A stretch of DNA of 64,000 bases from a virus. The stretch lies in IMG/VR virus record IMGVR_UViG_3300002138_000190, positions 1-64,000 of that record; one strand, given 5' to 3'. Of this stretch, positions 9,157 to 54,183 are shown in pieces. The notes beneath the pieces are model-generated. The model had not been told where the DNA came from and ran no database searches. It saw nothing but the letters and a program-made list of their open reading frames with translations. How positions within the stretch are numbered: position 1 is the stretch's first letter; every line of letters starts with the position of its first letter. The position numbers were made by a program, and so were the translations under genes.

Positions 9157-10068
9157 CTATGCGTTTTCTGCATTTTTCATATCTTCTATGTTTTGTGCTT
9201 TTTGCATTTTTGCCATAGCAATATTAAGATGTTTAAGCATCATTTGCTTTATGCTAGGAAACTTCATGTTTGGGTTTTGATTTTGATATGTGTGGTAAAG
9301 ATTTGTAAGACTCATTATTGCAAGGTTTTTTGTTTGGGCAGTACCTTTTACTCCTGCATTATCTGCTCCAGCTAGAGTAGCTAATTTTATAGCTCTTCCA
9401 TAAGTCTCATTAACTTTTTTAGCTTGACCACCAACACTTCTGTAATTATTTTCTTCATTGACATTATTTATGCCATCGTAATTACCTTCAAAAAACTTAG
9501 GGTCATACATGGAAGCAACACTTTTTTTCCATTCATCTAAAGTTGGAATGCTAGAAAAACTAGTATTTCCTTCTTCCATGTAATCACAACTTTTTTCAGC
9601 TTTCATACATTTCTTCTTTCCTTTACTTGAATTTTTTTTATTTTCTTCTACATGATGATGATTATGATGATGATTTGTATGGTCTTCATCGTCTTCATCG
9701 TCTTCATCGTCTTCATCGTCTTCATCATCTTCGTCATCTTCGTCATCTTCGTCATCTTCAATGTCTTGCATGTCTTCTTCATCATCTTCAATGTCTTCTT
9801 CATCATCTTCAATGTCTTTTACATCTTCATCATCTTTCATTTCATCTTCCATTTCATCTTCATCTTCTGTTGGAATTTCATCACCCATCCAGTTAGGAGC
9901 AGAATTTTCTGGATAGGAATCACCTAGAGTTCTGAATGAGTTTACATCAAAATTGCCTTGGGCAATTGGCCCACCTATAGAATTTGGGGTTATTGGCCCA
10001 CCTAGCACACCTCCGCAAAGTCCAAAATAGCTTTCATTAACTTTTTTCCATTTATCAAAATTTAACAT
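9157..10068 (-). CDS. Acidic internal protein with capsid-targeting-like N-terminus
   Basis: The start is the ATG at 10068, preceded by GGGAGGAATT; a further in-frame ATG at 10080 lies within that ribosome-binding site. 303 residues. The N-terminus MLNFDKWKKVNES has F4, W7 and E12 as in the T4 capsid-targeting peptide. The middle (~70-130) is an Asp/Glu tract with DDE repeats, followed by a His-rich stretch (HHHNHHH) and a Lys-rich segment. The C-terminal ~130 residues are mixed and helical. A packaged, possibly metal- or DNA-buffering internal protein is inferred. Confidence 0.75.
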   Translation of the reverse strand: MLNFDKWKKVNESYFGLCGGVLGGPITPNSIGGPIAQGNFDVNSFRTLGDSYPENSAPNWMGDEIPTEDEDEMEDEMKDDEDVKDIEDDEEDIEDDEEDMQDIEDDEDDEDDEDDEDDEDDEDDEDDEDHTNHHHNHHHVEENKKNSSKGKKKCMKAEKSCDYMEEGNTSFSSIPTLDEWKKSVASMYDPKFFEGNYDGINNVNEENNYRSVGGQAKKVNETYGRAIKLATLAGADNAGVKGTAQTKNLAIMSLTNLYHTYQNQNPNMKFPSIKQMMLKHLNIAMAKMQKAQNIEDMKNAENA

Positions 10069-10101
10069 AATTCCTCCCAAGGGTTATTGTTTATATACTG
10101 T

Positions 10102-10368
10102 TCATTCTTTATTTTTTAAAGCTTTTATTCTTGCTTGTTCGTAAACGCTTCTTCTTAGTATGTTGCTTCGTGTATTTGCCAATGAATTTATATTTACATT
10201 TTGATTTAAAGACATTGGTGTATTGTTAATAGGTAGCTTTGCTGTGTTGTTTTGTTGATTTAAATTTGTATTTTGTATTGGAACAGAAGTTATTCTGGTT
10301 GGTATTGGTGCAGGAGAAAATGGTATTCTTTTATTGCCAGGGCCAGCTTTTTTATTACATCCACACAT
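10102..10368 (-). CDS. Small CGCNK-motif protein
   Basis: 88 residues beginning MCGCNKKAGPGNKR, then Pro/Asn/Gln-rich low-complexity sequence and a basic helical C-terminus (RRSVYEQARIKALKNK). The Cys-Gly-Cys start could bind metal or form a disulfide. Its neighbour at 10378-10563 carries the same CGCNK motif internally. AAGGAG lies just upstream (10374-10379 region on the minus strand). Function unknown. Confidence 0.6.
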   Translation of the reverse strand: MCGCNKKAGPGNKRIPFSPAPIPTRITSVPIQNTNLNQQNNTAKLPINNTPMSLNQNVNINSLANTRSNILRRSVYEQARIKALKNKE

Positions 10369-10377
10369 AATTACTCC

Positions 10378-10563
10378 TTATAGAAATATTTTTCTGTTGT
10401 TTAGTTTATTTATTATATTTTCTTTTTTATTATCAATTTTATTTAATAAAGTTTCATTGTCGATATTTTTGTTACAGCCACATTCATTTTTTGAAATATT
10501 ACGATTTTGATTGATAATATTTTGGTAGTTTGGAAATTTTATTTTTATTATTTTTTTAGACAT
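10378..10563 (-). CDS. Small CGCNK-motif protein 2
   Basis: A 61-residue, Asn/Lys/Ile-rich basic protein with ECGCNKN at residues 27-33, the same motif as the neighbour at 10102-10368 (nine-base gap, same strand). No Shine-Dalgarno is visible, and only 10 bases separate its start from the divergent gene at 10574. Function unknown. Confidence 0.5.
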   Translation of the reverse strand: MSKKIIKIKFPNYQNIINQNRNISKNECGCNKNIDNETLLNKIDNKKENIINKLNNRKIFL

Positions 10564-10573
10564 ATAATTATAT

Positions 10574-12052
10574 ATGGAAACAAAAAAACTAATAGATCAA
10601 GCAATTAAAAAATGCTATGATTACTTGGGAAAAGATAAGTTTCTACATGCTAGAATTATTTCTTCTCAAATAATAAAAATTGATTCTAATTGTCATGATG
10701 CACATATGGTATTGGGGCTATGTTGTTTAAAAGATCAAAATGTTGAAAAGGCAAAAGAATTTTTCTTAAAGTGTTTAGAATGTGAAACTTTAAAAGAATC
10801 TGCATACAATAATCTTTCTATATGTTATTCAAAAATAAAAAAGCATCATGATTCAATAAATTGTATTTGGAATTGTTTAAGTTTAAATTCTACTAAAGAT
10901 TATTATTGGTCACATTTAGCAATGCAATATAAAGAATTAAATTATTTTAGCAAAGCAGATGAATGTTTTGTGAAAGCTTTAGATTTAAATCCAAGTGCAA
11001 TTAATCTTTCAAATTATGCAGCTTTTTTAGGAGATAATGGGGATTATAAAAAAGCAACTTTTTATTTTGAAAAAAGCTTAAAAAAAGATCCAAGTTTTTT
11101 TGGGCCATACATAGATTTATTTCATGTTTATGCATTAAACAATCGTTACTCCCATAAGTTGTGGGATTTTTACGAAAAAAGATTTGATGTTTACAGTCAG
11201 TTGAAATGGGTTAAAGAAAAAAATTTAAAATCTCCTAAAAATATTTTAGAATGTAAAAATAAAAAATGTGTTATTTATTGTGAGCAAGGTATTGGTGATG
11301 GGTTAATGTTTATGCGTTATTTAAAATTAATGCCTTCTTATGTAAAATATGTAATTTCTTGTGAACCTGAAATGAAAAGTATTTTTGAAAAATTAAATGT
11401 AAATGTCATTACAAGCTTAAAGAATAAAAAATTTGATTTTTACATTTCTTTATTAAGTCTTCCTTTTTTATTGAAAAAACCATCTATCCCAAAACCTTTT
11501 TTTCCTATTACTTCTAAAATTAAAAAATTCAATAACAAAATAGGTGTATGTTGGAGTGGTTCCCCTGCTCATGCCTTTGACAAACACAGGTCAATTTATT
11601 TTAAAAAGTTTTATGAAATTTTTAAAAACAAAAACAATTTAGAAATTTTTAGTTTAGTTAAAAATTATTCATGCCGAAAATATGTAGAATCAAATGAAGT
11701 TATTGATTTATCAAGTGGTGCTTTGGAAGAAGATGGATTAATTAACATTGGAAATCACATGAAAGATGTTGAGTCTACAACTAAGATAATTTTAGATAAA
11801 AAAATAAGTTTGGTTATAACTGTTGATACAATGATAGCTCATTTAGCATTAAGCATGGGAATTGAAACTTGGTTGTTGTTGTCTAAAAAATCTGATTGGA
11901 GATGGGGTTTAAAAAATAAAAGTAAGTGGTATGGAAACAATTTAAAAATATTTAGACAGACAAAGTTAGATGAATGGGATGATGTTTTAAATAAAATAGA
12001 GGAATATTTGAGTGAATATTCCTCTATTAAAAAATTAAAAATTAGGACTTAA
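10574..12052 (+). CDS. TPR-glycosyltransferase, paralog of 1030-2391
   Basis: 492 residues. TPR-like helical repeats span ~1-190 with typical A-x-x-F/Y positions (SKADECFVKALDLNPSA). The glycosyltransferase domain spans ~215-480: CEQGIGDG near 237, GVCWSGSPAH, a KHRSI motif, LVITVDTMIAHLA and DWRWG plus FRQ. It differs from its paralog mainly in the TPR region, suggesting different protein substrates or partners for the same chemistry. The start codon is 10 bases from the divergent gene and has no Shine-Dalgarno. Its 3' end overlaps the gene at 12042 by 11 bases. Confidence 0.8.
   Translation: METKKLIDQAIKKCYDYLGKDKFLHARIISSQIIKIDSNCHDAHMVLGLCCLKDQNVEKAKEFFLKCLECETLKESAYNNLSICYSKIKKHHDSINCIWNCLSLNSTKDYYWSHLAMQYKELNYFSKADECFVKALDLNPSAINLSNYAAFLGDNGDYKKATFYFEKSLKKDPSFFGPYIDLFHVYALNNRYSHKLWDFYEKRFDVYSQLKWVKEKNLKSPKNILECKNKKCVIYCEQGIGDGLMFMRYLKLMPSYVKYVISCEPEMKSIFEKLNVNVITSLKNKKFDFYISLLSLPFLLKKPSIPKPFFPITSKIKKFNNKIGVCWSGSPAHAFDKHRSIYFKKFYEIFKNKNNLEIFSLVKNYSCRKYVESNEVIDLSSGALEEDGLINIGNHMKDVESTTKIILDKKISLVITVDTMIAHLALSMGIETWLLLSKKSDWRWGLKNKSKWYGNNLKIFRQTKLDEWDDVLNKIEEYLSEYSSIKKLKIRT
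11995..12028 (-). terminator. Terminator hairpin inside the opposing gene's 3' end
   Basis: A perfect 14-base-pair stem: AATAGAGGAATATT (11995-12008) with its complement at 12015-12028 and a six-base loop. On the minus strand it is followed by TTTATTT, so it suits the gene ending at 12042. It lies wholly within the coding end of the TPR-glycosyltransferase. Confidence 0.65.
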
Positions 12053-12332: not shown

Positions 12333-12377
12333 TTTAGATACTCCTTAAAAGAAACTGTTAATTTATTATAACCATTT

Positions 12378-12920: not shown

Positions 12921-12959
12921 ACATATATTAAATTATTGTTCTGTTTTAATAGAGGGTAA

Positions 12960-13199
12960 ATGCTAAATTTTTTAGATTGGGCAAAACAAGAAAGTCTTAA
13001 TTTGCCAATATTTTCAGAAGATAAGCGAAATTATGGTAAATGCACCTATCCAGCTAACACTAAGCAATTAGATGTACAGTATCCACCTTCGTATTTAGCA
13101 GTACATAATCCTGATATTTTAGCAAAAATGAATCAGGGAGATTGTAAAAGCACAGGACATAAAAGAAAAAGAAATAGAAAAAGAAAAGGAAAAAAATAA
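12960..13199 (+). CDS. Internal-type protein with targeting-like N-terminus and basic tail
   Basis: 79 residues. The N-terminus MLNFLDWAKQES has F4, W7 and E11. A middle YPANTKQLDVQYPPSY segment is shared with the next gene. The last 12 residues are nearly all Lys/Arg (KRKRNRKRKGKK), typical of DNA-contacting internal proteins. GAGGG precedes the start. The stop and the next start overlap by one base (TAATG). A packaged DNA-binding protein is inferred. Confidence 0.75.
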   Translation: MLNFLDWAKQESLNLPIFSEDKRNYGKCTYPANTKQLDVQYPPSYLAVHNPDILAKMNQGDCKSTGHKRKRNRKRKGKK

Positions 13200-13447
13200 T
13201 GTTGAATTTTAATGATTGGGTTAAAGAAAATTACAATGAAGATAACTTCAAAGAAAATGCTACAAAAAGAGCAGGAACAAAATCTTGGGCATATCCTACT
13301 GGTTATATAAGAAGTCAATATCCAAGTAACTATTTCCCACCATATTCTGCAACAGCAGCATACAATATGAAGGATAAAACTCAGGCTAGTGTTGATTCTG
13401 AAATAGGCAAAGTAAGTTACAAAAACTTTAATTCTACTGAAGCTTAA
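13199..13447 (+). CDS. Internal-type protein, paralog of preceding gene
   Basis: 82 residues beginning MLNFNDWVKENYNE (F4, W7, E10). Its AYPTGYIRSQYPSNYFPPYS segment aligns with the preceding protein, so the pair arose by duplication; the basic tail is absent and is replaced by a Ser/Thr/Lys-mixed end. It is translationally coupled to the upstream gene and ends before a bidirectional terminator. Confidence 0.75.
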   Translation: MLNFNDWVKENYNEDNFKENATKRAGTKSWAYPTGYIRSQYPSNYFPPYSATAAYNMKDKTQASVDSEIGKVSYKNFNSTEA

Positions 13448-13461
13448 TTAAAATTTATTTG

Positions 13462-13496: not shown

Positions 13497-13499
13497 ACG

Positions 13500-15432: not shown

Positions 15433-15879
15433 ATGGGTGACTTAAGTTTAGGACAATCTGATGTAAGTGTGGTAATTTCAGATACATCGTTAGCTGGAAA
15501 TATTGCTGTTTTAACCAATACAGATGGTGGCTATGGATTAACTACATATGAAGGAAGTAGAGGGCAAAAAACTTCTGCTAGTAGTATTCCTGTCGTTATA
15601 TCATCTGATCAAGCAGTTCAAACAACTATTGTAAGTGGGCAAGCTACAATAGGTACAGTAGCAACTCAACTAACATCAAATACTTTAAAACAAGGAGTAA
15701 TTATAAAAGCTTCAAATGCTAATACAGGAATTTTGTATTTAGGTGCAAGTGGAGTAACCACAGGAAGTGGTTTTGAATTAAGTGGGGGTGAAACTATAAC
15801 TGTACCAGTTAATAACACAAATATACTTTATGTTATTGCATCTTCTGCGAATCAAGTAGTTTCATTTATAGGAAATTAA
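15433..15879 (+). CDS. Virion structural protein, related to the left-edge protein
   Basis: 148 residues behind a strong AAAGGAGATAAT. Beginning MGDLSLGQSD, it is Ser/Thr/Val-rich, with two or three short beta repeats (IPVVISSDQAV, TIVSGQATIGTV) and a C-terminal jelly-roll-like region (GFELSGGETITVPV). It resembles the repeat protein at 1-722 in composition. Likely a decoration or fibre component; not assigned further. Confidence 0.65.
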   Translation: MGDLSLGQSDVSVVISDTSLAGNIAVLTNTDGGYGLTTYEGSRGQKTSASSIPVVISSDQAVQTTIVSGQATIGTVATQLTSNTLKQGVIIKASNANTGILYLGASGVTTGSGFELSGGETITVPVNNTNILYVIASSANQVVSFIGN

Positions 15880-16496
15880 TTTAATTTTTTAATTAAAAAT
15901 GGATGTTTTTCTTTTGCATTGTTAAATTTATCGTTATTGGGTTTATCTTTTCTGCCTTTTACATGTTTAATGCTAAATGGACTGTCATCCATTGCTTTGT
16001 TGTGTTTTTCGTTATCAGGCTTATCTTTTCTACCTTTTAAATGTTTAATGCTAAATGGACTTCCGTCAAAAGCTTTATTGTGCATGTCGTTATTATTGTT
16101 TTTTTGAGTTGGTTTTAAATGTTTGATACTGAATGGATTTCCATCACCACCTTTGTTGTGTGCATCATTGTTTGGTTTTGTTCTACTGCCTTTTAAATGA
16201 GTTATCTTAAAAGGCTTTTTTTCTCCTGATTTATTGTGTATTTCATTATTATTGCTTGGTTGATTTGGTTTTAAATGATTTATCTTAAAGGGATTTTTTT
16301 CACCGATATTGTTCCATAACCTATCATCTTTGCTAATATATATAATTGCATCAGCTGAACCAGGTATAAAATAAGCTGGTGGTAGCAAGCAAAGGCCAGC
16401 ATATCCACAAGGATAAAGTAATGTTTTGCCAGCTGTTCTACTTGCACCTTCTAGAAAATTGTGCTAATCATTAATTAGCCAATTTTTAAATCCCAT
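15876..16496 (-). pseudogene. Tandem-repeat protein with in-frame amber codon
   Basis: An ATG at 16496 (one base after the upstream stop) opens MGFKNWLIND and then hits TAG at 16464-16466 (codon 11). The same frame continues without interruption as HNFLEGASRTAGKTLLYP through a hydrophobic stretch into six repeats of ~28 residues (PFSIKHLKGRKDKPNN types) to the stop at 15876. The repeats are intact and basic, so the coding frame is clearly maintained. The first 10 residues resemble the targeting-like peptide. Options: amber readthrough or suppression, internal TTG start at 16388, recent mutation, or sequence error. TAG ends other genes here (for example 20513, 41185, 42034), so global reassignment is unlikely. 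Confidence 0.65.
15891..16320. repeat. Six in-frame repeats of ~84 bases
   Basis: The minus strand encodes six ~28-residue units containing a PF-x-I-x-H-L-K core and an N-N/D-x-H-N-K spacer. The last units are most alike, suggesting recent expansion at that end. Confidence 0.75.
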
Positions 16497-16497: not shown

Positions 16498-16737
16498 TTA
16501 CTTTTTCAAATCTTTTAACATGTGATTAGCCGTATTAGTTGCATCTTCTTTATCGTCTGCATAATAATCAGCTTTTTCTCCAATATGTTTTCCATCTTTA
16601 AAAAACTTTACTATAAATTCATCATCATCTTTATAAATTTTTGCTGTATTGTTTCCAAGTTTAATTGTATCGATTAATCTTGCATCTTCTAAAACAATAC
16701 TTTCTCTTGATTCAAAATATTCTCTAAATGTTTTCAT
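16498..16737 (-). CDS. Small internal-type protein, best match to T4 targeting peptide
   Basis: 79 residues beginning MKTFREYFESRE, nearly superimposable on T4 internal protein III's MKTYQEFIAE: K2, T3, aromatic 4 and aromatic 7. IVLED at 14-18 is a possible gp21-type cleavage site. The remaining ~60 residues form a compact beta-beta-alpha domain (TAKIYKDDDEFIVKFF). It lies one base upstream of the amber-containing gene. Confidence 0.75.
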   Translation of the reverse strand: MKTFREYFESRESIVLEDARLIDTIKLGNNTAKIYKDDDEFIVKFFKDGKHIGEKADYYADDKEDATNTANHMLKDLKK

Positions 16738-24734: not shown

Positions 24735-25322
24735 ATGTTAGAAGAATGGCAGACAAATCCTGATAACTTAAGAATTTTAAAATTATCTAATAGACAAAAG
24801 CAAACTATTTTTGGAACTCTTTTAGGATCATCTAGTGTAATTCATCCTAATAAATCTAAGAATCCACATCTTCTTATGAGATGTAACAAAAGTGAAAATG
24901 TAAATTGGTTAAGGTGCAAGGCAGAAGAATTAAAAATATTATCAAGGCCAAAGAGTTTTATAGAAGATGAAACTGGATTTAGATGGAATTCATTTTCTAA
25001 TTATATTTTTGTTGATTTTAAAAATTTATTTTATAAAAATGGAATTAAAAAAATTGAAATGGAAGTTTTAGATGGTTTGGGGGATTTAGGTATTTGTACT
25101 TGGTTTTTAGATAGAGGTGTAAATGTAAAAAATATTTATGGTTTTAAAACAATAGGATATGATAAAAAATCTATTGAAAACATAATAAAATATTTTAATC
25201 TTATTAACTTGCCCATATTTAAAAATAAAACAGGATATTTATTATTTGAAAATGAAACAATATCAGACAAATTTTTAAAAATAATAAGCAATTGCATTCC
25301 ACTTGTTTTGAGATCAAGCTAA
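24735..25322 (+). CDS. LAGLIDADG-family homing endonuclease
   Basis: 195 residues. It begins with the typical LSNRQKQTIFGTLLGSS (residues 17-33), then MRCNKSENVNWLRCKAEEL, and the second helix DLGICTWFLDRG (117-128), matching single-chain LAGLIDADG enzymes that start 'QKQIIFGTLLGDGS'. The Asp expected in the first motif is Ser32, while the second keeps Asp126, so cleavage may be lost or altered. A free-standing gene, not inside an intron or intein, next to a gene remnant; its end overlaps the acyl carrier gene by nine bases. Confidence 0.75.
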   Translation: MLEEWQTNPDNLRILKLSNRQKQTIFGTLLGSSSVIHPNKSKNPHLLMRCNKSENVNWLRCKAEELKILSRPKSFIEDETGFRWNSFSNYIFVDFKNLFYKNGIKKIEMEVLDGLGDLGICTWFLDRGVNVKNIYGFKTIGYDKKSIENIIKYFNLINLPIFKNKTGYLLFENETISDKFLKIISNCIPLVLRSS

Positions 25323-25565
25323 TACAATGTTTTTATTTGTTAAATTAAATAACTTTTCTATATCAGTCTCAGAATTTATTTGATTAAATACCCCTTCTGA
25401 TATTTCTATGTTAAACTTTTCTTCAATGTCATAAAACAATTGCATGTAGTCAAGTGAATCTAAATTTAGATCACTTAATTTTGTATTTATGTTAACTTCC
25501 TCTTTATCTACATGTAATAGCTCACATATTACTTCTTTAAACTCAATTACATTTAGATTTTTCAT
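25314..25565 (-). CDS. Acyl carrier protein
   Basis: 83 residues from ATG 25565, preceded by AAGGAA. The ACP fold is clear: helix I, then DLNLDSLDYMQL with Ser37 as the 4'-phosphopantetheine attachment site, an acidic helix II (DIEEKFNIEIS) and helix IV. ACPs carry acyl or amino-acyl groups as thioesters. No partner synthase is visible here, so it may intercept host acyl metabolism or load a phage-specific group. Host holo-ACP synthase would be needed. Confidence 0.9.
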   Translation of the reverse strand: MKNLNVIEFKEVICELLHVDKEEVNINTKLSDLNLDSLDYMQLFYDIEEKFNIEISEGVFNQINSETDIEKLFNLTNKNIVLA

Positions 25566-25697: not shown

Positions 25698-26279
25698 ATG
25701 TATATTTCATTCAAAAATTGGTTAGAAGTAAATACTTTTGGAACTAAAGAAGTTGACGAAAGTAAAATTGATGTTATTTATGATAAAGCCAAAATTAGTG
25801 TTAAATTAGTGCAGATGTTTAACGAGAAGCTTCTTTATAACATTAATACTATTATACCCTTGCAATCTGGTGTTTATGGGCTTTATAGCTCTGCTAAAAA
25901 TCAAAAAGTAATAGATCAAAGTGAAGCAGAAAAAATAAGATTAAAATTTGGAAATGATGTTATTGAAAAACATAAAGTTAATATGATTCCTAATGTTGTT
26001 TTAAAACAACAAATACCTAATCTTGATTTAAATAAAATACATCCATCTGACACTATTGAAGTAAATATTAGTAAAATATTGAAGGAGCTTGGAAATACAA
26101 AAAGAGCAGTAATAGAAATTGCAAGTACCATTGTTCATGAAGCAACTCATGAAAATGAATTGCAAACAAAAGGATCAACCAATGAAATTGGCCCCAAAGC
26201 TGCGGAAGTTCAATTTTTAAATTGGGTTAAATTACATCAAGATATTGTTAATAATTTAATGCGGGATTTACCTGACTAA
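25698..26279 (+). CDS. Zinc metallopeptidase with targeting-like N-terminus
   Basis: 193 residues. The N-terminus MYISFKNWLE (F5, W8, E10) resembles the T4 capsid-targeting peptide. HEATH at 147-151 is a zincin active site (two His ligands and catalytic Glu), and an acidic third ligand is likely at E163 or E170 in the following EIGPKAAEVQ helix. The fold before it is alpha/beta, about 140 residues. It could be packaged and ejected to act on host proteins or the cell wall. Single gene with its own AT-rich promoter region. Confidence 0.75.
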   Translation: MYISFKNWLEVNTFGTKEVDESKIDVIYDKAKISVKLVQMFNEKLLYNINTIIPLQSGVYGLYSSAKNQKVIDQSEAEKIRLKFGNDVIEKHKVNMIPNVVLKQQIPNLDLNKIHPSDTIEVNISKILKELGNTKRAVIEIASTIVHEATHENELQTKGSTNEIGPKAAEVQFLNWVKLHQDIVNNLMRDLPD

Positions 26280-29050: not shown

Positions 29051-29953
29051 TTAAAGTTTTTTAATGCCAGATAAAACTAGCAATTCGTTGTTTTCGTCAC
29101 CTTTTCCAGAGTTATATTCCGCAATAACCTGTACTTTATTGGTATCGACATGACCTCTCCCCGATACATTCTTTGCTTTCTCAGTTCTTTCTTTCTGTTC
29201 GCTGATAAATTTGTTTCTTTTATCAGATTTCGATTCACTATTGTTTTTGTTTTCATTAACATAATGATTGAATTTTTTAACCGATTCATGAAGTTTAGTG
29301 TTGTCTGTCGAAAGTCTAATATTTCTAGCTTCCAACAAACGAACTTGATTTCTTAATTCTTCAATAGATTTAGAAGCTTCATTTAATTTAGAAGAAGTAG
29401 CAAAAGTACATTCTTCGTTCTTTAAATAGCTAGAAGTAATATCAGCAATTTTGTCCAAGGCAAGCTTGTGTTCTACAAGTGCTGGATCGCTGAGGATATC
29501 TTTCTTAGCTTGTTCGTAAATTTCTACACCCTTTTGTTGCAAGAATTGATCAACTTTTTCTACAATATAGTTTTTCATTTCTGCAAGTTTACCATCATAT
29601 TCTTCATAAAGTTCGGTTTCGATGTCTTTATTTTTTTCTCTTTCTGAAAGTAACATGCTATATGCTTCTTCATATCCTTCTTCAAGAGTTTTGTTAAACT
29701 CTTCAGATTGGAGTTCAAGTCTATTTCTGAGATCAGAAATAATAGCATATGCTTCTTGGTATCCTGTGTAAGCTGTTTTTTCAGCACTTTCCAAATCTTG
29801 AGAAAGTTGTGAATATGCATCTTCAAGATTTTTGTTATATTCTTTTTCCATTTCTTCTTTAGCTGAACCTAACATATCCTGTACAGCTGAAGAAACTTCG
29901 TTGAATTGATTTTCAGGAAGTAATTTTTTCAAAGCTTCTGTAATTTTGTCCAT
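29051..29953 (-). CDS. Prohead core scaffold (T4 gp22-like)
   Basis: 300 residues, mostly long acidic helices/coiled coil (~30-240), starting MDKITEALKKLLPENQ, similar to gp22's N-terminus. Position between protease and capsid matches T4 genes 21-22-23. It assembles the prohead core and is degraded by the protease during maturation; IxE/LxE sites are plentiful. The C-terminus (residues ~245-300) is compact and ends in VLSGIKKL, expected to contact capsid protein. AGAGG precedes the start. Confidence 0.85.
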   Translation of the reverse strand: MDKITEALKKLLPENQFNEVSSAVQDMLGSAKEEMEKEYNKNLEDAYSQLSQDLESAEKTAYTGYQEAYAIISDLRNRLELQSEEFNKTLEEGYEEAYSMLLSEREKNKDIETELYEEYDGKLAEMKNYIVEKVDQFLQQKGVEIYEQAKKDILSDPALVEHKLALDKIADITSSYLKNEECTFATSSKLNEASKSIEELRNQVRLLEARNIRLSTDNTKLHESVKKFNHYVNENKNNSESKSDKRNKFISEQKERTEKAKNVSGRGHVDTNKVQVIAEYNSGKGDENNELLVLSGIKKL

Positions 29954-29955: not shown

Positions 29956-30609
29956 CTAACCTCTCTTTAAATTGGAAGTATAATTATTGATAATCCCGCC
30001 TAACGCAGCAATTAACGCATCTTTGTTAACTTTATCTATGCTTGAAGATGTATTTTTTACTGAATAATTTGGAATAAATTGTGGAGAATGTGAAAAACCT
30101 TCTCCAGTAATTTTTTGCTGAAACGCTCCGTGAGTTGATGGATCAGCAACAACATCAAATGTTATAAGCTTATATCCTTCAGATATAACCAAATGACCTT
30201 GTTCGTTTGTTTTACCGCTACCAACACCACGACTACTTATTCCTGGTGGAATACCGTCTTCTAATAAAGCACGAAGGGTTCTCCCATATGGAGTGTTTAA
30301 AGTTTCTCCTTCGCCCATTAAATTATTGCCATCCCACCAAAGTTTAGTAATAACATGAGAAGCTTTTTCATAATGAACAATAGAATCAGTTGGATGATCA
30401 AGTTCACCAACTAAACCTCTTTTTTTTATCAAATCACTTAAAGCTTCAACATTTTGCCTTAAAACATTTTCGCTGTATATTCTGCCATTTTTGTTAACTT
30501 CATTTACGGCTTGAAATTTACCACGAAAACGCATTCTGCCATTAGAACCTTCGTTAATTTGCATATTAACATTATTATTTTGACAAGAATCTACAAGTAG
30601 CATGCTCAT
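29956..30609 (-). CDS. Prohead maturation protease (T4 gp21-like, S77)
   Basis: 217 residues. GELDHPTDS (His72) and PPGISSRGVGSG (Ser125/126) are the catalytic His and Ser motifs of the S77/herpesvirus-assemblin fold, followed by a FDVVADPST strand. It is activated in the prohead, cuts scaffold, capsid and internal proteins after Glu in L/I-x-E contexts. AAAGGAG lies seven bases before the ATG, and the gene is two bases from the scaffold start. Its specificity is central to the targeting-peptide hypothesis. Confidence 0.9.
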   Translation of the reverse strand: MSMLLVDSCQNNNVNMQINEGSNGRMRFRGKFQAVNEVNKNGRIYSENVLRQNVEALSDLIKKRGLVGELDHPTDSIVHYEKASHVITKLWWDGNNLMGEGETLNTPYGRTLRALLEDGIPPGISSRGVGSGKTNEQGHLVISEGYKLITFDVVADPSTHGAFQQKITGEGFSHSPQFIPNYSVKNTSSSIDKVNKDALIAALGGIINNYTSNLKRG

Positions 30610-32503: not shown

Positions 32504-32812
32504 ATGACATCTTTTAAAAATTTTTTAAATTGTAGAGAAGCATTTCAAGTTGGAGTTGAAAAAGATTACCAATATGACATGGAAGAAATATTTCAAGCAG
32601 CTAAATTTTATATTGTTAAAAATCCAAAAAAAATGAAAGATTTTTTAACTAAAGAAGCAGAAAGAGATGATGACTTGAAAAGCAATATTCACTTTTCATC
32701 TTTATTAAATAAAAATAAAAATACTGAAGATAATCCTATTAAGCCTTTAGGAGATTTTGTTGGTTATGATATGGGTAAGCCAACACAATCTCCCATAGGG
32801 GATTTAGATTAA
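32504..32812 (+). CDS. Small internal-type protein with targeting-like N-terminus
   Basis: 102 residues beginning MTSFKNFLNCREAF (F4, F7, E12 before Ala, a good gp21-type cut). A helical acidic/basic body and a Pro/Gly end (PTQSPIGDLD) follow. It lies next to the head operon on the opposite strand. A packaged protein is inferred. Confidence 0.7.
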   Translation: MTSFKNFLNCREAFQVGVEKDYQYDMEEIFQAAKFYIVKNPKKMKDFLTKEAERDDDLKSNIHFSSLLNKNKNTEDNPIKPLGDFVGYDMGKPTQSPIGDLD

Positions 32813-38850: not shown

Positions 38851-40692
38851 TTAAAGTATTTGATTTGCAATATTGGCTAAATATACATTAATTGTAATTA
38901 AAATACTCCAGCCAAATTCTTTCAGTATATCATTCTTATTTCTGTATTTGTTTATTAGCATTTCTTTTGTTTGTTCATCTAGATCATTTGAATCGTTATC
39001 AAAATCAAAATTGTCATCATGGAAAACAATCATTTTGTTCAAGCTTTCTTTAAGCTCTTCCCTTAATTGATTAATAGTTTGGCTCTGAACAACAACATTA
39101 CCTAAATTTGGTGACTTAATGTTAAAAGCAGAAATGTTATTGAACATGCTATCTCTTGCATATAAAGCTAAAGCAGTAGCCATGATTGCATCGTCATGTT
39201 TTCCTCTTTGTGCTTGTGCCTTTTTTGAAATTACATTGTATTCAAAAGTTTTTAATTCATTAACAAGCCTCATAGAATTTATTTTCAAAGAATCATTATA
39301 AATTTTTTGTTGAAATGTTTGAAGTATAATAGGTCTGTTTTGAACAGTTATTTTAACACCAGGTTTAGGATTTTTACTTGTGTGAGCGTTATTGTAAAAT
39401 AAGTTTTCGTAAAAATATTCATGTAATAAAGAATTTAGTATAGCACCACCTGTACTCATGTCTTCAACTACAATTAATGCCTTGTTATAAAAACTAGCAA
39501 TTTCTTTTGATACTTGAGCAAATTCATGAGTTGGAATGTTATTACTGTAAAATTCAGCTACTTGTTCTAATGTGTTTTGATTTATAATTTGCAAGCAAGA
39601 ATTATCTCCACCATCTCCAATTCCTTCAGCCGAATCCAATCCAGCTATGTATTCTTGTCCATCAACAGGTTCTTTCCAAATCCACAAAGCACCTTTTCCC
39701 ATGTCATTTTCAGATATATCGGATCTATTTGCCCAACTAGGAAGTATTTTTTTATATGGTATCTTCTTTTTGGTAGTTCTATCTAATTCAGTAAGTTTAT
39801 TACTTGAAATATAAGTTTCACCAGATCCTAGAAATACTCTCAAAACTTCCTGTAGAAAACCTCTTTCTCCTAATTGTGCTTTTTGTTCTATTGACCAGTT
39901 AGGATTTTTTGAATCACAGTAATCAGGATGCTCCCAATAATCTAAATCAATAACATTAAACATATTTAGTTTTTCTTTAGCAGCAGAATATGTTTCTTCA
40001 TACCAATTACCAACACCATTTACAGTTGAAATAACTACGCAATTACCCCCTGTGCTAAGTACAGGCCACATAGCTTTCCAATGTGTTTCCATGTCAGGGA
40101 TAAATGCTGCTTCGTCAATTATAAGCAAGCTTGTTGCTTTACCTCTGGCTGCTTCTGGAGAATAAAACATCATGTTGCCTCCAGTTTCCATAAATTGTTT
40201 TAAATGGTCATTCCACTTGCCACTATCTTTATTTGGCTTCAACCATTCAGGCAAATATTCAACTGCACGATCTACAATCATACCGATAATAGTGGCTTCT
40301 CTATCTGTTTTTGACAATAACATGATTTGTTGATCAAGTTTAAACATGCACCGCCACATTCCATACAACAATGTAACAGTAGTCAAACCACCCTGTCTAA
40401 ATTTACTTATAATGTTAAATCTTGAACTTTCATATTCTTGAATGCATTTGTTTTGATATTTGTATATTATAAACGGTATTAATCCTTTTGTTGGATGTAA
40501 TATTTTTACATATTTGTGGCAAAAGTAACTAAAGCTTTGAGTGCATTTTAAAATTTCTTTTTGTTGATTTTCAAAACTTAAATTATTTAAATCTTGTAAA
40601 GTTTCAGTTGTTGGGATTTCAAATTGATTGAAATCAAAGTGGAAAAAATTTTTATCGTATTTTTTTAAATAATTAGTCTTGAAATTTACCAT
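38851..40692 (-). CDS. terL: Large terminase subunit (T4 gp17-like)
   Basis: 613 residues. ATPase: Walker A-like SKFRQGGLTT (96-105), Walker B LLIIDEAAF (189-197) and coupling motif ISTVNGVGNWY. Nuclease: GLDSAEGIGDGGDNS (~349-363), VVEDMSTGG and C-terminal HDDAIMATALALYA, giving the RNase-H-like metal-binding acids. It powers DNA packaging and cuts the concatemer. First gene of the head transcript; a following ~30-residue hydrophobic end (ILITINVYLANIANQIL) is unusual. Confidence 0.95.
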   Translation of the reverse strand: MVNFKTNYLKKYDKNFFHFDFNQFEIPTTETLQDLNNLSFENQQKEILKCTQSFSYFCHKYVKILHPTKGLIPFIIYKYQNKCIQEYESSRFNIISKFRQGGLTTVTLLYGMWRCMFKLDQQIMLLSKTDREATIIGMIVDRAVEYLPEWLKPNKDSGKWNDHLKQFMETGGNMMFYSPEAARGKATSLLIIDEAAFIPDMETHWKAMWPVLSTGGNCVVISTVNGVGNWYEETYSAAKEKLNMFNVIDLDYWEHPDYCDSKNPNWSIEQKAQLGERGFLQEVLRVFLGSGETYISSNKLTELDRTTKKKIPYKKILPSWANRSDISENDMGKGALWIWKEPVDGQEYIAGLDSAEGIGDGGDNSCLQIINQNTLEQVAEFYSNNIPTHEFAQVSKEIASFYNKALIVVEDMSTGGAILNSLLHEYFYENLFYNNAHTSKNPKPGVKITVQNRPIILQTFQQKIYNDSLKINSMRLVNELKTFEYNVISKKAQAQRGKHDDAIMATALALYARDSMFNNISAFNIKSPNLGNVVVQSQTINQLREELKESLNKMIVFHDDNFDFDNDSNDLDEQTKEMLINKYRNKNDILKEFGWSILITINVYLANIANQIL

Positions 40693-42604: not shown

Positions 42605-44176
42605 ATGTTTAAAATTTGCAATATCATATTTAATTATGTTAAAAGATTTTTTACTTTTAAAAAGCCCATGTGTGTTAATGCAACAAGTAAGTTAACTTTA
42701 CATTACATAAATGATCCTTCAACCCCAAACATAAAAGAAAATGTTAATTTGCCTGTTAATAACTTCATGAAATTAAAAGTAAACAACATGACTGATGTTG
42801 GCGGTTCTGTTTTAGGATCAGTACAATGGCAAGCTGATAATGCATATATTTCTTTAACAAATTGTTTGAACTCATTACAAAAATTTTTCCCATCAAATAT
42901 AAAAAAATGGGCAGCAACAAATAATTTAGTTGTTTATCCAAGAGCAGGAAAAGATGCAAATGCTTATTACGATAGAAGTTCTTTAAAGTTTTTCTATTTT
43001 AATTCTTACGCTGATGGAAAATTAATTTATTCTGTCGAATCAAGTGATATTGTAACGCATGAATTAGGACATGCAATATTAGATGCAATAAGACCAGATT
43101 TTTGGAATGCTGCTGCATTTGAAATAGGTGCGTTTCATGAATCTTTTGGTGATTTGATAGCACTTTTAAACATTTTGCAATATGACACAGTAATTAACAC
43201 CATTTTAATTGATACAAAAGGAAATTTGAGGCAAAATAATTTTGTCTCGGAGTTAGCAGAGCAATTTGGAAGTGCCTTGGAAATTCCTCATGGACTTAGA
43301 AATGCTTTTAATTCTGAAAGTTATGTTAATCCTGATTTTCTTCCATCTGATGGAAAAGGTTTAATAAAAGAAATTCATAGTTTTAGTGTTGTTTGGACAG
43401 GTGCTTTTTATGATATTTTTGTTTCAATATATGAAAAATTAGGAAAATCAAAAGCTTCTTTGATTCAAGCTAGAGATATAGTAACTAAACTTTTATTTGA
43501 ATCTGTAACAAAAGTTCCTGCAACTGTGAAGTTTTTTAATTCGTTGGCAAAATGTATGATTGCTACTGATAAGAAAATAAATGGAAAGTTGTACAGTTCT
43601 ATACTTATAGATGTTTTCAAGAAAAGAAACATTTTAACTGCTTCTGATGTGCAGCAAATGAGTCTTTCCAACATATCGATTTTATCAGAAGAAAAAGAAA
43701 ATTATTTGTTTACAAGTAACAAAGAAATTTTTGTAAATTCAAATAACAACAAAATAAAAGTACAGTTGGCATGCGATTCATTTCATGATAATGAAAAAAA
43801 CAAATTAAATGCCCTTTCAATTTTTAGTGATGATATTGATTCTTATCAAGAAGCTGAATCTTTTGTTAATTATCTTTTTTCTAAAGATTTAATTGGCAAT
43901 GACAAAAAGCATAATTGGTTTATTGATAAAGATAATGACAATAAATTAACAAGAATTAAAATGCAAAGTGATTTTGGTTTTATAAACAACTGTACAATAA
44001 AAGGTCAACCTGAATATAAAAAATGCTGGAAGCCAGATAATAATTCGGGTTGTTGTCCTTATGGATGTCCGAAAACAGAAAATGAAGAGCCAACTAATTA
44101 TAAGTCTTGTGCTGTTCGTTATTCTGCTTGTAACAATAATGTTACTAGTTCTAGTTGCAATAATAAAATTTTATAA
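42605..44176 (+). CDS. Zinc metalloprotease with Cys-rich tail
   Basis: 523 residues from ATG 42605 after AAAGGAAATT; the same frame stays open upstream to 42482. HELGH (152-156) plus a downstream HESFGD (E179, D182) match the gluzincin (thermolysin/M4-like) arrangement, with a SSDIVTHELGHAI lead-in. A ~320-residue mixed region follows. The last ~45 residues hold ten or so Cys (CWKPDNNSGCCPYGCP, SCAVRYSACNNN), which suggests an exported or virion-exposed, disulfide-rich end. No clear signal peptide. It could degrade host or capsular proteins. Confidence 0.8.
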   Translation: MFKICNIIFNYVKRFFTFKKPMCVNATSKLTLHYINDPSTPNIKENVNLPVNNFMKLKVNNMTDVGGSVLGSVQWQADNAYISLTNCLNSLQKFFPSNIKKWAATNNLVVYPRAGKDANAYYDRSSLKFFYFNSYADGKLIYSVESSDIVTHELGHAILDAIRPDFWNAAAFEIGAFHESFGDLIALLNILQYDTVINTILIDTKGNLRQNNFVSELAEQFGSALEIPHGLRNAFNSESYVNPDFLPSDGKGLIKEIHSFSVVWTGAFYDIFVSIYEKLGKSKASLIQARDIVTKLLFESVTKVPATVKFFNSLAKCMIATDKKINGKLYSSILIDVFKKRNILTASDVQQMSLSNISILSEEKENYLFTSNKEIFVNSNNNKIKVQLACDSFHDNEKNKLNALSIFSDDIDSYQEAESFVNYLFSKDLIGNDKKHNWFIDKDNDNKLTRIKMQSDFGFINNCTIKGQPEYKKCWKPDNNSGCCPYGCPKTENEEPTNYKSCAVRYSACNNNVTSSSCNNKIL

Positions 44177-44408: not shown

Positions 44409-44732
44409 ATGCTTTTGTCATTTAATATTGATAATAAAGAAAAATTGTCTTTGTATTACCAAGAAGTCAATAGTTACAATAGCGAAAGTGATTTTAACGA
44501 TGACGATTGGGAAAATTTAGATAAAGATGATGAAGACGATGATGAAGATGAAGACGATGAAGACGATGATGAAGATGAAGACGATGATGACGATGATGAA
44601 GATTATGAAGACGATGACGATTGGGATAATTTAGACGATGAAGACGATGAAGACGATGAAGACGATGAAGACGATGAAGACGATGAAGACGATGAAGACG
44701 ATGAAGACGATGAAGACGATGAAGACGATTAA
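44409..44732 (+). CDS. Extremely acidic repeat protein
   Basis: 107 residues, AAAAGGAGAAATT before the ATG. After ~28 ordinary residues it is almost wholly Asp/Glu (DEDDEDDED), with two DDWxNLD interruptions. Encoded by a 9-base GACGATGAA repeat. A polyanion of this kind could mimic DNA or buffer cations. It shares the tract type with 9157-10068. Confidence 0.65.
   Translation: MLLSFNIDNKEKLSLYYQEVNSYNSESDFNDDDWENLDKDDEDDDEDEDDEDDDEDEDDDDDDEDYEDDDDWDNLDDEDDEDDEDDEDDEDDEDDEDDEDDEDDEDD
44634..44729. repeat. 9-base repeat GACGATGAA
   Basis: About ten perfect head-to-tail copies in the coding frame of the acidic protein. Confidence 0.9.
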
Positions 44733-44753: not shown

Positions 44754-44939
44754 TTAATAACAAGCCTTTCTGTTTGCAGGAAGGCTTGTTTTACGCTTAT
44801 CTTTTTTTGTAGGTGGTTTATTGCCCCAATCCTTATTTAAGGCTTGACCATCACCAATATCACCAATTGATTTAGTACCATCAGGACTATTATAAGAACT
44901 TGTAGCAACTTCTTTTAAATATTGATAAAATGTTAGCAT
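44754..44939 (-). CDS. Small internal-type protein with targeting-like N-terminus
   Basis: 61 residues beginning MLTFYQYLKEVATS (F4, Y7, E10 then Val), one of the best matches to the T4 signal. The rest is Gly/Ser/Asp then Lys/Arg-rich (PPTKKDKRKTSLPANRK). A 17-base divergent gap separates it from 44957. Its last codons coincide with a terminator hairpin. Confidence 0.7.
   Translation of the reverse strand: MLTFYQYLKEVATSSYNSPDGTKSIGDIGDGQALNKDWGNKPPTKKDKRKTSLPANRKACY
44759..44794 (+). terminator. Terminator for the acidic repeat gene
   Basis: AACAAGCCTT (44759-44768) pairs with AAGGCTTGTT (44781-44790), followed by TT. It overlaps the 3' coding end of the opposite gene. Confidence 0.75.
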
Positions 44940-50167: not shown

Positions 50168-50180
50168 CTTGACACTTCTT

Positions 50181-50420: not shown

Positions 50421-50427
50421 AGATTTC

Positions 50428-51384: not shown

Positions 51385-51396
51385 GATCTAAAATAG

Positions 51397-51427
51397 AAAA
51401 AGAGTGCAAATAGATTGCACTCTTTTT
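51397..51427 (-). terminator. Rho-independent terminator
   Basis: AAAAAGAGTGCAA (51397-51409) pairs with its complement at 51415-51427 around five bases, with U-tract on the minus strand. It ends the transcript of the structural gene at 51446-52012. Confidence 0.85.
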
Positions 51428-51445
51428 ATTTATTTTTAATTAAAA

Positions 51446-52012: not shown

Positions 52013-52063
52013 ACATTTCTCCTTTAATAATTTTATATTATCGTATAACTCTATTTATTGTAA

Positions 52064-52657
52064 TTAATTTAAAATTTCATGATTTGGAAACAGTTTTTTG
52101 TAAAGATTTATACTTGTTGATTTTTCATTAAATAAAAATGTTGGTATTCCATAAAAAGCTGCTGCAAATAACTCTGGTGATTCAATTCCTGTGATAGCAC
52201 CTATTTCTTGTTTATTGTTAACTTTTTCAACAATTTCATAACCTTTTTTGCACATTTCATTTTTTATTTTTGTAATTTCTAAATCTGTCAAAGACTTATT
52301 TATTGAATTTTTAACTAATAAACATTTTTTTGAAATTTGTTTTTTAATTTCAAAATAAAAATCAAATTTTTCAAAATTAATTAAATTTTCAATTGGATTT
52401 GATATAAAATTTTCTTTTAAATCAAAAACATAACCAAACATTTGATTTTCTTGCAAAAAGGTTTTAGAAATTACATTTTTTTTACTTTTGAATTTGTCAT
52501 AAATTTTTGTGTTATAACAATAATAAATATTTAAATTTTCGTATGTTTTTTCTAATAAATCTCTTAAATTAGATAATATTACAGGATAAATAAAATTATC
52601 ACCTAAATATGAAATACAGTAGTTTTTATAAATGTTTTTGTAATTTGATAATATCAT
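52064..52657 (-). CDS. Possible degenerate glycosyltransferase-like protein
   Basis: 197 residues. GAITGIESPELFAAAFYGIPTFLF near the C-terminus resembles the sugar-binding 'G.ES...AAA.GIP.I' region of GT-B enzymes, but an N-terminal donor site is not obvious and the protein is short. Starts 13 bases from a divergent small gene. Uncertain. Confidence 0.45.
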   Translation of the reverse strand: MILSNYKNIYKNYCISYLGDNFIYPVILSNLRDLLEKTYENLNIYYCYNTKIYDKFKSKKNVISKTFLQENQMFGYVFDLKENFISNPIENLINFEKFDFYFEIKKQISKKCLLVKNSINKSLTDLEITKIKNEMCKKGYEIVEKVNNKQEIGAITGIESPELFAAAFYGIPTFLFNEKSTSINLYKKLFPNHEILN

Positions 52658-52670
52658 GAGTTAAAATAAT

Positions 52671-52844
52671 ATGGAAGACAATATTTTAAAAGACACAGCA
52701 TCTAATTTTTTAGATGCTGCAAATGCATTAGAAGAATTTTTAAATAATTTTGAAATAGACAGCATTGATAAAGATCAAACTGTCCAAGAAATTTTTAAAA
52801 ATATTAAAAAAAATAAAAATTTACTTTTTAAAGAATTGGAATAA
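52671..52844 (+). CDS. Small helical acidic protein
   Basis: 57 residues (MEDNILKDTASNFLDAANAL...), helical and acidic with a Lys-rich end. The TAA is directly followed by the next ATG at 52845. No Shine-Dalgarno. Likely real because of tight coupling. Confidence 0.55.
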   Translation: MEDNILKDTASNFLDAANALEEFLNNFEIDSIDKDQTVQEIFKNIKKNKNLLFKELE

Positions 52845-53204
52845 ATGCAAAATTTTTTATACATGCCTAGAAGAGATAGAAAAGGAATGATACTTGTAAT
52901 GGTGTTTGATGGAGAAAAAGTTACAAGAACCAGCATTAAAAACTTTGCAATTATTGGATTAAATAGTGAAAAAACAAAAACTTTAGAAGATTTTTATAAG
53001 CCTTATCGCATGAATTATGATTTTGTAATAGAATCTGCTGTTGATTTTGACACTTTAAAAAAAAGACTTTTAGAAAAGGGATTTAGAAATTTACCTATTA
53101 CAAATAGGCCAGTTTTTTCAAATTGGCAAAAAGAAAATCCAAAAAACTTTTTACAATCTCAAAAAATAATGTTGCAAAAAAAGAATTTGTTTGATATAAA
53201 ATAA
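52845..53204 (+). CDS. Hypothetical protein
   Basis: 119 residues, basic, alpha/beta (MPRRDRKGMILVMVFDGEKV, VIESAVDFDTLKKRLLEKGF). No family. Coupled to the small gene upstream. Confidence 0.55.
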   Translation: MQNFLYMPRRDRKGMILVMVFDGEKVTRTSIKNFAIIGLNSEKTKTLEDFYKPYRMNYDFVIESAVDFDTLKKRLLEKGFRNLPITNRPVFSNWQKENPKNFLQSQKIMLQKKNLFDIK

Positions 53205-53249
53205 TCTGGTGAAAGAATTACCCCTTTAATAGGATTGCAGGAGAAAAAT

Positions 53250-53849
53250 ATGCAAGAGACTATTTCAACGGTTAATGCTGGTTCTTGTTCTATTGGAAAT
53301 CCAACCAATGTTTCAAAAGAACAAGGGCAGAAGAACTATCAAACATCAGTAAAAAACCAAGAAGATTATTATAAAAATTTAATAATATCTATATTGGCAT
53401 TTTGCGTTATCGCATTAGCAGCATTTGCTATTTTCCAAAACAATAAAATTGAAGGATTAAGTTTGGTCAATTCAGTTAATTCTGCTGGTGGAAAGCTAAA
53501 CGATGATAACTTTAGAGAAGTTTATTATAATTTGCTAATGGACATTAGGAATAACAACAGGCAATCTGATGTTGAAAACAGTAAAAATGCTGGCAGGGTG
53601 GATGGAATTTTGTCAGTTATTTCCAACCAAAAACCTGATTCTAATGATTTTACTAAAATTTGGCATGAAGGATATTATCGTGGCATGAATCAATTGGAAG
53701 ATGCAAGAGTTGCAGAATATGTTCGAGGTTATCATGCAGCATGTGATGATCTTAATTGTCCTTCAACTGCAAAAGAAAAAGCTTATAATGGAATTAATAA
53801 TAAAATTGGTGTTGATAACTCTGAGATACCAGTTGAAATTAAAAAGTAA
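53250..53849 (+). CDS. Single-pass membrane protein
   Basis: 199 residues from ATG 53250 after CAGGAGA. A single hydrophobic helix (~43-62, NLIISILAFCVIALAAFAIF) follows a Ser/Gln-rich head; a ~135-residue soluble region follows with Gly/Tyr-rich helical EGYYRGMNQLED. Signal-anchor type. Function not known; could be lysis-related or superinfection exclusion. Confidence 0.6.
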   Translation: MQETISTVNAGSCSIGNPTNVSKEQGQKNYQTSVKNQEDYYKNLIISILAFCVIALAAFAIFQNNKIEGLSLVNSVNSAGGKLNDDNFREVYYNLLMDIRNNNRQSDVENSKNAGRVDGILSVISNQKPDSNDFTKIWHEGYYRGMNQLEDARVAEYVRGYHAACDDLNCPSTAKEKAYNGINNKIGVDNSEIPVEIKK

Positions 53850-53865
53850 CCATTAATTTATTATT

Positions 53866-53897
53866 AAAAAAGCACTATTAAAATTTAGTGCTTTTTT
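53866..53897. terminator. Bidirectional rho-independent terminator
   Basis: AAAAAAGCACTA (53866-53877) pairs with TAGTGCTTTTTT (53886-53897), extendable to 15 base pairs. Between convergent genes ending 53849 and 53896. Confidence 0.85.
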
Positions 53898-54183
53898 AAT
53901 AACTTTTATGTTTTGTGTCATTTTCTTCAATTGAAAAAATTCCCTTTTTCGTCTTTATTGTTAGAATATTATTTACAGATTCAATTATTGTTCCACCATT
54001 TTTTCTAAAACATTTTGCTATTTCAAATATGTTTCCCTCATGAACTTCTATTTTTTCAATTAAAATTGAAAATTTTATTTTTGAATATACTTTTTCTGAA
54101 ATGTTTTTTTCATTTTCGTTTATGGAATTTTTTTTCAACCATTTGTCAAAACCATCATAAGATAAAAAATTATTGTTGTTCAT
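53896..54183 (-). CDS. Small protein, loosely targeting-like start
   Basis: 95 residues from ATG 54183 (overlapping the upstream gene by 14 bases). MNNNNFLSYDGFDKWLKKNSINENE includes a DGFDKWLKK stretch similar to the packaged-protein signals but displaced. The rest is an alpha/beta domain (EGNIFEIAKCFRKNGG). Uncertain class. Confidence 0.5.
   Translation of the reverse strand: MNNNNFLSYDGFDKWLKKNSINENEKNISEKVYSKIKFSILIEKIEVHEGNIFEIAKCFRKNGGTIIESVNNILTIKTKKGIFSIEENDTKHKSY

Follow-up and report, generated by a model that had tools for sequence, protein, structure and literature searches.

The DNA considered here is a window of 64 kb (64,000 nucleotides), the first part of a virus record of 115,879 bases with a G+C content of about 28%. 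Our subject is a short peptide, called the tag below, that stands at the N-terminus of about ten proteins encoded in the window and resembles the capsid-targeting sequence of phage T4. The proteins concerned, with the head genes of the same window, are as follows; scores in bits come from a position matrix described further on.

9157-10068, minus strand: 303-aa acidic protein, N-terminus MLNFDKWKKVNES; marginal tag (F4, W7, V-N-E), 4.4 bits
12960-13199, plus strand: 79-aa protein with a basic tail, N-terminus MLNFLDWAKQES; tag, 10.3 bits; paralog of 13199
13199-13447, plus strand: 82-aa protein, N-terminus MLNFNDWVKEN; tag, 16.2 bits
14801-15367, minus strand: 188-aa protein, N-terminus MKSFNEYKFE; tag, 7.6 bits
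15876-16496, minus strand: interrupted tagged gene, with an in-frame stop behind MGFKNWLIND and an open frame beyond it (15876-16388)
16498-16737, minus strand: 79-aa protein, N-terminus MKTFREYFESRESIVLED; top-scoring tag of the record, 18.7 bits
22131-22733, plus strand: 200-aa acidic protein, N-terminus MSNSFYKLFEK; 0.0 bits, fits the first-pass pattern only
25698-26279, plus strand: 193-aa protein with an HExxH motif, N-terminus MYISFKNWLE; tag, 11.6 bits
27601-29031, minus strand: major capsid protein (phrog_138, 7.9e-84)
29051-29953, minus strand: putative prohead core protein between the capsid and protease genes (best PHROG 7222, function unknown, 8e-4)
29956-30609, minus strand: gp21-like prohead protease (phrog_207, 1.8e-47)
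32504-32812, plus strand: 102-aa protein, N-terminus MTSFKNFLNCRE; tag, 5.8 bits
35364-37904, minus strand: portal protein (phrog_213, 3.6e-70) with an intein-like insertion, the latter by inspection
44754-44939, minus strand: 61-aa protein, N-terminus MLTFYQYLKE; tag, 10.6 bits
53896-54183, minus strand: 95-aa protein, -1.9 bits; F-x-x-W core shifted to residues 12-15

The window also encodes a large terminase (phrog_2, 7.1e-38), and the product of 29051-29953 is probably the prohead core protein, judging from its gp22-like position. A first-pass annotation had described the N-terminal pattern on about ten of these proteins and had pointed to a gp21-like protease in the same window. All nine N-termini that it quoted are found where it had placed them, and the protease is there. 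Its list stands in part: seven members score 5.8 to 18.7 bits, 9157 is marginal, and 22131 and 53896 are not scored as tags. Of the 10 listed proteins, 8 have two aromatic residues three apart near residue 4, the exceptions being 22131 and 53896 (pair at 12 and 15); relatives of the latter in G012 and G013 also hold the F-x-x-W core. The bodies are unrelated in general, as had been said, except for the adjacent pair 12960/13199 (36% identity over 47 aa, E 1.6e-4). An LR756511 relative of 13199 (487260) begins MVKTFMQWAEE, and the body of 16498 matches PHROG 7884 (function unknown, 8.2e-15). One member was missing from the list, namely the interrupted minus-strand gene from 16496. Its counterpart in G001 (39875-40495, DNA 98% identical) is tagged and uninterrupted. 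The stop may be genuine or a sequencing error. The body of this protein consists of repeats.

A DNA search with 4.7 kb of the window's head genes found LR756511 as the sole match among phage records. This is an uncultured phage of 595,163 bases, unannotated, and all of it was used as a relative; its protease is 54% identical to that of the window and its capsid protein 75%. The giant relatives compared were LR756511, G012 and G013, with G001 as a near-identical contig, and the other genomes were G005, G007, T4, S-CRM01, phiKZ, phage G (400 of 497 kb) and LR756500. Gene starts came from a simple caller of our own (131 genes in the record), so that some tags will have been missed and a few matches will be false. 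G002, G003 and G004 were left out of the tag counts for poor calls (coding fraction 0.40 to 0.63 at best), and G008, with 0 of 14 genes matching the strict regular expression (regex) defined next, is too small a sample for judgement. We coded the wording of the first-pass annotation as a rule and added a strict regex: an aromatic residue, two residues, an aromatic residue, and Glu within five. The chance background consisted of N-terminus-like windows at internal Met (n=477 in the record). The position matrix was trained on LR756511 only, with a tag threshold of 7 bits in genome counts; for the cyanophage S-CREM2 the threshold was 5 bits and annotated gene starts were used.

The motif is in large excess over this background. 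By the first-pass wording it occurs in 13 of the 131 genes of the record against 2.2 expected (p 3.7e-7), in 52/892 genes of LR756511 (14.1 expected) and in 21/484 of G012 (7.7 expected); phiKZ, phage G and LR756500 do not exceed expectation. The strict regex finds 12/131 in the record against 2.2 expected (p 2.4e-6; estimates of chance matches range from 1.9 to 2.2), and 2000 runs on column-permuted record N-termini never gave more than 8. Some matches of the record, 98327 and 114222 among them, look like chance. The same regex finds 57/892 in LR756511 (11.0 expected, p 3.6e-23), 35/484 in G012 (4.6 expected), 17/572 in G013 (6.6 expected), 8/62 in G001 (0.6 expected), 5/51 in G005 (0.9 expected) and 7/219 in S-CRM01 (2.1 expected, p 5.5e-3). 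As a positive control, T4 gives 8/244 (2.0 expected, p 1e-3), two of the eight being copies of MKTYQEFIAE. There is no excess in phiKZ (4/315, 3.3 expected), in the 400 kb of phage G (5/470, 6.5 expected), in LR756500 (6/621, 6.6 expected) or in G007 (1/107, 0.7 expected).

The motif can also be recovered without being specified. Seedless discovery by EM on the N-termini of LR756511 returned [TDN]-F-[KRN]-[EDQ]-[WFLY]-[LIV]-[EK], and nothing comparable came from internal-Met controls. In LR756511, its own training genome and hence not an independent test, the matrix marks 67 genes at 7 bits or more against 4.5 expected, from which we estimate about 60 real tagged genes of 892. Moved to the record, it marks 10 of 131 genes against 1 of 477 internal-Met windows (Fisher 1.5e-6), or 9 genes against no internal windows with the record's own background. 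This search of the whole record with an N-terminal profile, which the first-pass annotation had proposed, adds four tagged genes outside the window (82363, 112016, 113874 and 114717). Moved to the other giant relatives, the matrix finds 28 genes in G012 (1.4 expected) and 25 in G013 (1.5 expected).

The tag is kept while the bodies diverge. Among LR756511 tags of at least 10 bits whose best-hit relative is less than 85% identical over at least 40 aa, the aromatic core is kept at the N-terminus in 29 of 34 relatives; the genome-wide background for such a core is 56/484 in G012 and 38/572 in G013. In two of the five misses the start was called wrongly and the tag lies just before it, a third (G013 215892) has F-x-x-W a few residues further in, and a fourth is the relative of the doubtful LR756511 member 38651. 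The last, seemingly a real absence, is a homolog of the CCA-adding enzyme in the record (85104-86363), which has no tag and aligns with tagged CCA enzymes of LR756511, G012 and G013. Lineages may thus differ in whether they package this enzyme.

What follows the core bears on cleavage. The sequence L-I-N-E/VSTD of the window capsid protein aligns with F-L-T-E/AE of T4 gp23, the site at which gp23 is cut. At that column 18 of 25 aligned capsid proteins have L-[IVMFY]-N-E, five (including those of T4 and S-CRM01) have another hydrophobic-x-Glu, one is uncovered, and that of LR756500 has no site. The T4 protease cuts after L/I-x-E (PMC9026906). A hydrophobic-x-Glu lies within 14 residues after the core in 50 of 60 LR756511 tags (shuffle mean 29.1, maximum 38), in 16 of 17 G012 tags and in 11 of 12 G013 tags, an enrichment that is partly circular because the matrix itself favours Glu. 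The narrower [LI]-x-E occurs in 27/77 tagged against 128/794 untagged proteins, and further downstream it is not in excess (11/77 against 118/794).

The first-pass annotation had placed the cut after a Glu at residues 9-12. This is one possibility, but two families have a conserved candidate further on. In the 25698 family all 10 aligned sequences have F/W-x-x-W/F near the N-terminus, and just ahead of the conserved domain comes a conserved [VIM]-D-E (E21 in the window protein); between a few and nearly 40 residues separate the two motifs. The AlphaFold model of 25698 (mean pLDDT 72) has low confidence or disorder at residues 1-24 and higher confidence beyond. The 14801 protein is laid out as tag, variable linker, hydrophobic-x-Glu (E45) and conserved domain, and in its family of three sequences the hydrophobic-x-Glu precedes a conserved TRYS block. 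In both families the start of each relative was set as the first Met before the core, a choice that favours the motif; the in-frame upstream peptide was also inspected without that choice. We therefore prefer a hydrophobic-x-Glu site of variable position to the fixed one. As for 25698 being a known metalloprotease, support did not go beyond the conserved HExxH: Foldseek against PDB gave no match at E<=0.001 with this medium-confidence model. Head propeptides of the phiKZ type were also considered and rejected, since the protease is gp21-like and has no match in phiKZ at E 0.001, nor has it one in phage G. The phiKZ site S/A-x-E does not fit the window capsid protein either, with its large hydrophobic residue two before Glu.

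Virions of a T4-like cyanophage, S-CREM2, offer a comparison with packaged proteins, as 52 of its virion proteins have been listed by mass spectrometry (PMC10665884). The tag is associated with the virion: the matrix marks 5/52 virion proteins against 2/166 undetected ones (p 0.009), and the strict regex 5/52 against 3/166 (p 0.02). A pattern of T4 type, [FY]xxF[LIVMF]xE in the first 30 residues, was chosen after the N-termini of S-CREM2 had been seen, and it matches 5/30 non-tail virion proteins, 0/22 tail or lysis proteins and 1/167 undetected proteins (p 3.2e-4), where the tail group (22/52) is our own division of the published list. All four non-lytic virion enzymes fit this post hoc pattern: a SAM hydrolase, an APH-like kinase, a cytidylyltransferase and Cas9. 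The authors of the proteome suggested that the enzymes may enter the cell and were unable to exclude carry-over (PMC10665884); the main text of their paper does not mention capsid targeting or related terms. The N-termini of NMNAT-like proteins of S-CRM01, S-SZBM1, P-SSM2 and ACG-2014f fit the T4-type pattern as well (4/4). NMNAT is contained in virions of S-SCSM1 (PMC9602691), and a kinase in those of S-CRM01, as cited by PMC10665884; the product of the S-CRM01 kinase gene begins MISFDQFLSEK. As a separate observation, the Cas9-like virion protein of S-CREM2 (L195, 7704-10313, minus strand) has its T4-type core at about residue 18.

Most tagged genes of the giant relatives also share a promoter-like element. 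In LR756511 a TAnATA box whose end lies 2-14 nt ahead of the start codon precedes 40 of 60 tagged genes against 46 of 815 others (p 3e-30), and 31/60 tagged genes against 132/815 others have no Shine-Dalgarno match. The box resembles the core of the T4 late promoter. Where the upstream DNA is gene-free the box is found in 22/30 tagged against 22/424 other genes, and where a Shine-Dalgarno match is missing in addition, in 18/18 against 13/80. The other giant relatives agree (G012, 11/17 against 37/450; G013, 8/12 against 53/544). The distance would put the start of the RNA at or near the start codon; therefore the tagged genes are possibly expressed late, as leaderless messages.

What are the tagged proteins? 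In the window, eight of them and 44754 gave no Pfam match above the cut-off, and outside it the 112016 protein of the record matches GP88 (1.3e-7). Forty of the 60 LR756511 proteins of at least 10 bits were scanned: seven have a match above the cut-off and 33 none. The seven are PolyA_pol/CCA (9.8e-26, with CCA-adding enzymes in PDB at 9e-23), HAD_SAK_1 RNA repair (1.6e-15), the Peptidase_C39 family (5e-14), DUF5661 (4.8e-11), tRNA_lig_CPD (7.7e-9), Pribosyltran (2.9e-7) and a KOW domain (8.8e-7). Sequence searches of PDB with the HAD and 2H proteins gave no match at E 0.1, and a search of viral contigs gave no relatives of the 2H protein, though G012 holds one. Seven loci of the CCA enzyme were found (L144-L150), and a tag was recognised in six of them, L144-L149; of these, L146 belongs to G012 and L147 to G013, and L148 is identical to L146. 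G005 has a tagged kinase (AAA_33, 1.2e-10; T4 polynucleotide kinase in PDB, 2e-4) and a tagged phosphoesterase (Acb1, 1.9e-9; 2_5_RNA_ligase2, 1.2e-10), and a search for relatives of the latter returned only its own contig. G012 has a tagged AAA_33/zeta-like kinase (3.3e-11), a tagged tRNA_lig_CPD protein (8.1e-10) and a cytidylyltransferase (9.2e-12) tagged by the regex only.

We think it quite probable that the shared peptide is a capsid-targeting sequence of T4 type and that its bearers are packaged, cut and ejected. The residues that match are those that determine targeting in T4, positions 4 and 7 (PMC9026906), and the likeness proposed by the first-pass annotation is strongly supported, comparison with related genomes included. 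An aromatic pair three apart near residues 4 and 7 would direct many unrelated proteins into the assembling prohead. There the gp21-like protease would cut after hydrophobic-x-Glu, directly behind the tag or beyond a linker, and the mature protein thus freed would be carried in the head and pass into the host together with the DNA. For the window's own proteins, packaging, cut positions and ejection, the last as effectors in the first-pass annotation, are what we infer from their genes.

Several points weigh against this. For the phage of the window the reading is drawn from genes, and S-CREM2 is the only virion comparison. There the T4-type pattern is weaker with our own gene starts (3/29 against 1/121, p 0.02), and the matrix marks only two of the four enzymes, giving the kinase 1.4 and Cas9 -4.6 bits. 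In T4, where the tag is somewhat different, the matrix finds no excess. The LR756511 set, on which the matrix was itself trained, includes doubtful members: 38651 has a relative without the motif; 52268 has paralogs without it, while its G013 counterpart retains it; 543819 retains it in G012 and G013 and lacks it in the record. EM on the 131 genes of the record gave no clear motif, and the first-pass wording is borderline in G013 (17/572, 11.0 expected, p 0.056). In a wider BLAST listing, which takes in paralogs and lowers the tag threshold to 7 bits, a score of 5 bits or more is reached by 35 of 56 relatives; the other 21 fall below. Relatives of gp21 are present in G007 and LR756500, yet no tag excess is found there. 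The excess of the TAnATA box is not significant in the record (4/11 against 17/120, p 0.08), nor in G001, G003, G005 and S-CRM01, and a T4-type late sigma factor to which the box might be linked was sought by tblastn (E 0.01) in the record, LR756511, G012 and G013, and none was found.

Could the tags instead mark parts of the prohead core or scaffold, mostly degraded after assembly, with few or none ejected? T4 core proteins are cut to fragments and mostly removed from the head (PMC9026906), tagged genes (25698 and 32504) are found on either side of the head genes, and 9157 and 22131 are very acidic; some tagged window proteins, these two for example, may indeed belong to the core. As an account of the whole set we consider it unlikely, since in relatives the tags are on recognisable enzymes, and also on enzymes in purified S-CREM2 virions, and tagged LR756511 proteins have the more basic composition, with a net charge of +1.2 per 100 aa against -1.2 in the others. 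Even less probable, in our opinion, is a different N-terminal signal, for membrane association or a phage compartment, that merely resembles the T4 tag. It is general knowledge that short aromatic amphipathic N-termini can have other roles, and the two genomes with gp21 relatives and without excess fit such a signal; but phiKZ and phage G, in which no match to the window protease is found, show no excess, the T4 internal proteins that bear the tag are head proteins (PMC9026906), the tag is commoner among S-CREM2 virion proteins, and hydrophobic-x-Glu follows the core. Chance likeness among AT-rich, aromatic-rich N-termini is scarcely credible: every genome yields some chance matches, but the internal-Met, column-permutation and other-huge-phage controls, the last including LR756500 with 24% G+C, refute it statistically, as does conservation in relatives.

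If capsid targeting is the correct reading, a broader suggestion can be made. Tagged cargo in the relatives includes RNA-repair and anti-defence enzymes, and the phage of the window and its giant relatives therefore probably carry a ready-made toolkit into the host with their DNA. More tentatively, and without quite leaning towards it, we suggest that giant T4-type phages and many cyanophages pre-load a swappable kit for counter-defence and takeover by means of one tag. It could comprise CCA-adding enzymes for tRNA end-repair, RNA healing (Pnk-like kinase, HAD, 2H phosphoesterase), an Acb1-like destroyer of the CBASS signal, NAD+-related enzymes, SAM hydrolase, proteases and Cas9, and it might act from the onset of infection, ahead of all phage gene expression, having been made late from promoters that abut the start (leaderless).

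Some neighbouring genes can be mentioned here, labelled by inspection. Two protease-like products of the window have no tag: a subtilisin-like protease at 3844-4929 and an HExxH metallopeptidase-like protein at 42605-44176, both on the plus strand and both named from their motifs. A small acyl-carrier-protein-like product is encoded at 25314-25565 (minus strand). At 44409-44732 (plus strand), adjoining the tagged 44754, there is an extremely acidic low-complexity protein of Asp/Glu repeats, possibly a prohead core partner; a similar pair exists in G005. Inspection of translations also shows an intein-like insertion in the G005 relative of the portal protein. Positions 86500-109222 of the record hold a long series of genes that look like glycan or sugar biosynthesis.

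It is already known that T-even phages have tagged internal proteins with a part in anti-restriction (PMC9026906, PMC9391042). A comparative survey of jumbo phages treats RNA repair and CCA enzymes (PMC7824862) and a 2026 review treats co-injected proteins (PMC13282480); the phrase "capsid targeting" is absent from the accessible portions of both. Within what the accessible literature holds, we found nothing on capsid targeting in huge phages, only PMC9026906 on capsid targeting with cyanophage, and no report of a tag expansion under capsid targeting, RNA repair or anti-CBASS/Acb1, most subscription papers being outside this scope. Being a targeting system of T4 type, what we describe is not of a new kind. 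The lead is strong and can be tested, on account of its scale, of the enzymes among the cargo and of its agreement with virion enzymes that so far lack an explanation. With a tag that can be read, one could ask by sequence search which proteins a phage injects. For a single phage of 595 kb the tag predicts about 60 cargo proteins, where T4 is known for a few, and it offers an explanation for the puzzling enzymes in cyanophage virions. It also suggests that activities for RNA repair and against CBASS can reach the cell together with the DNA rather than be made after infection, and it supplies natural pairs of tag and cargo for testing in laboratory phages.

We know other systems in which proteins travel in the phage head. 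In phiKZ and SPN3US, many head proteins, among them inner-body and ejection proteins, are cut after Glu, as is proposed here; the phiKZ motif is S/A-x-E (PMC9026906), unlike ours, and phiKZ has no tag excess. In P1, an N-terminal peptide of DarB sends that large protein, and a reporter, to the head, but no consensus among the Dar N-termini was found in that study (PMC9024508). The tag of T4 IPII and IPIII (Mullaney and Black 1996, via PMC9026906) is alike in occupying the N-terminal 10-20 residues, in its aromatics at 4 and 7, in hydrophobic-x-Glu, in a protease of gp21 type and in the unrelated bodies behind it. Unlike T4, the phages described here have tens of tagged genes and not a few, W is frequent as the second aromatic, Glu often stands directly behind W-L, some families have a linker and a later candidate cut site, and there are enzymes among the tagged proteins. 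In this last respect they are like the cyanophages S-CREM2 (PMC10665884) and S-SCSM1 (PMC9602691), whose virions contain enzymes; in S-CREM2 the NMNAT-like protein, the kinase, the SAM hydrolase and Cas9 fit the T4-type pattern.

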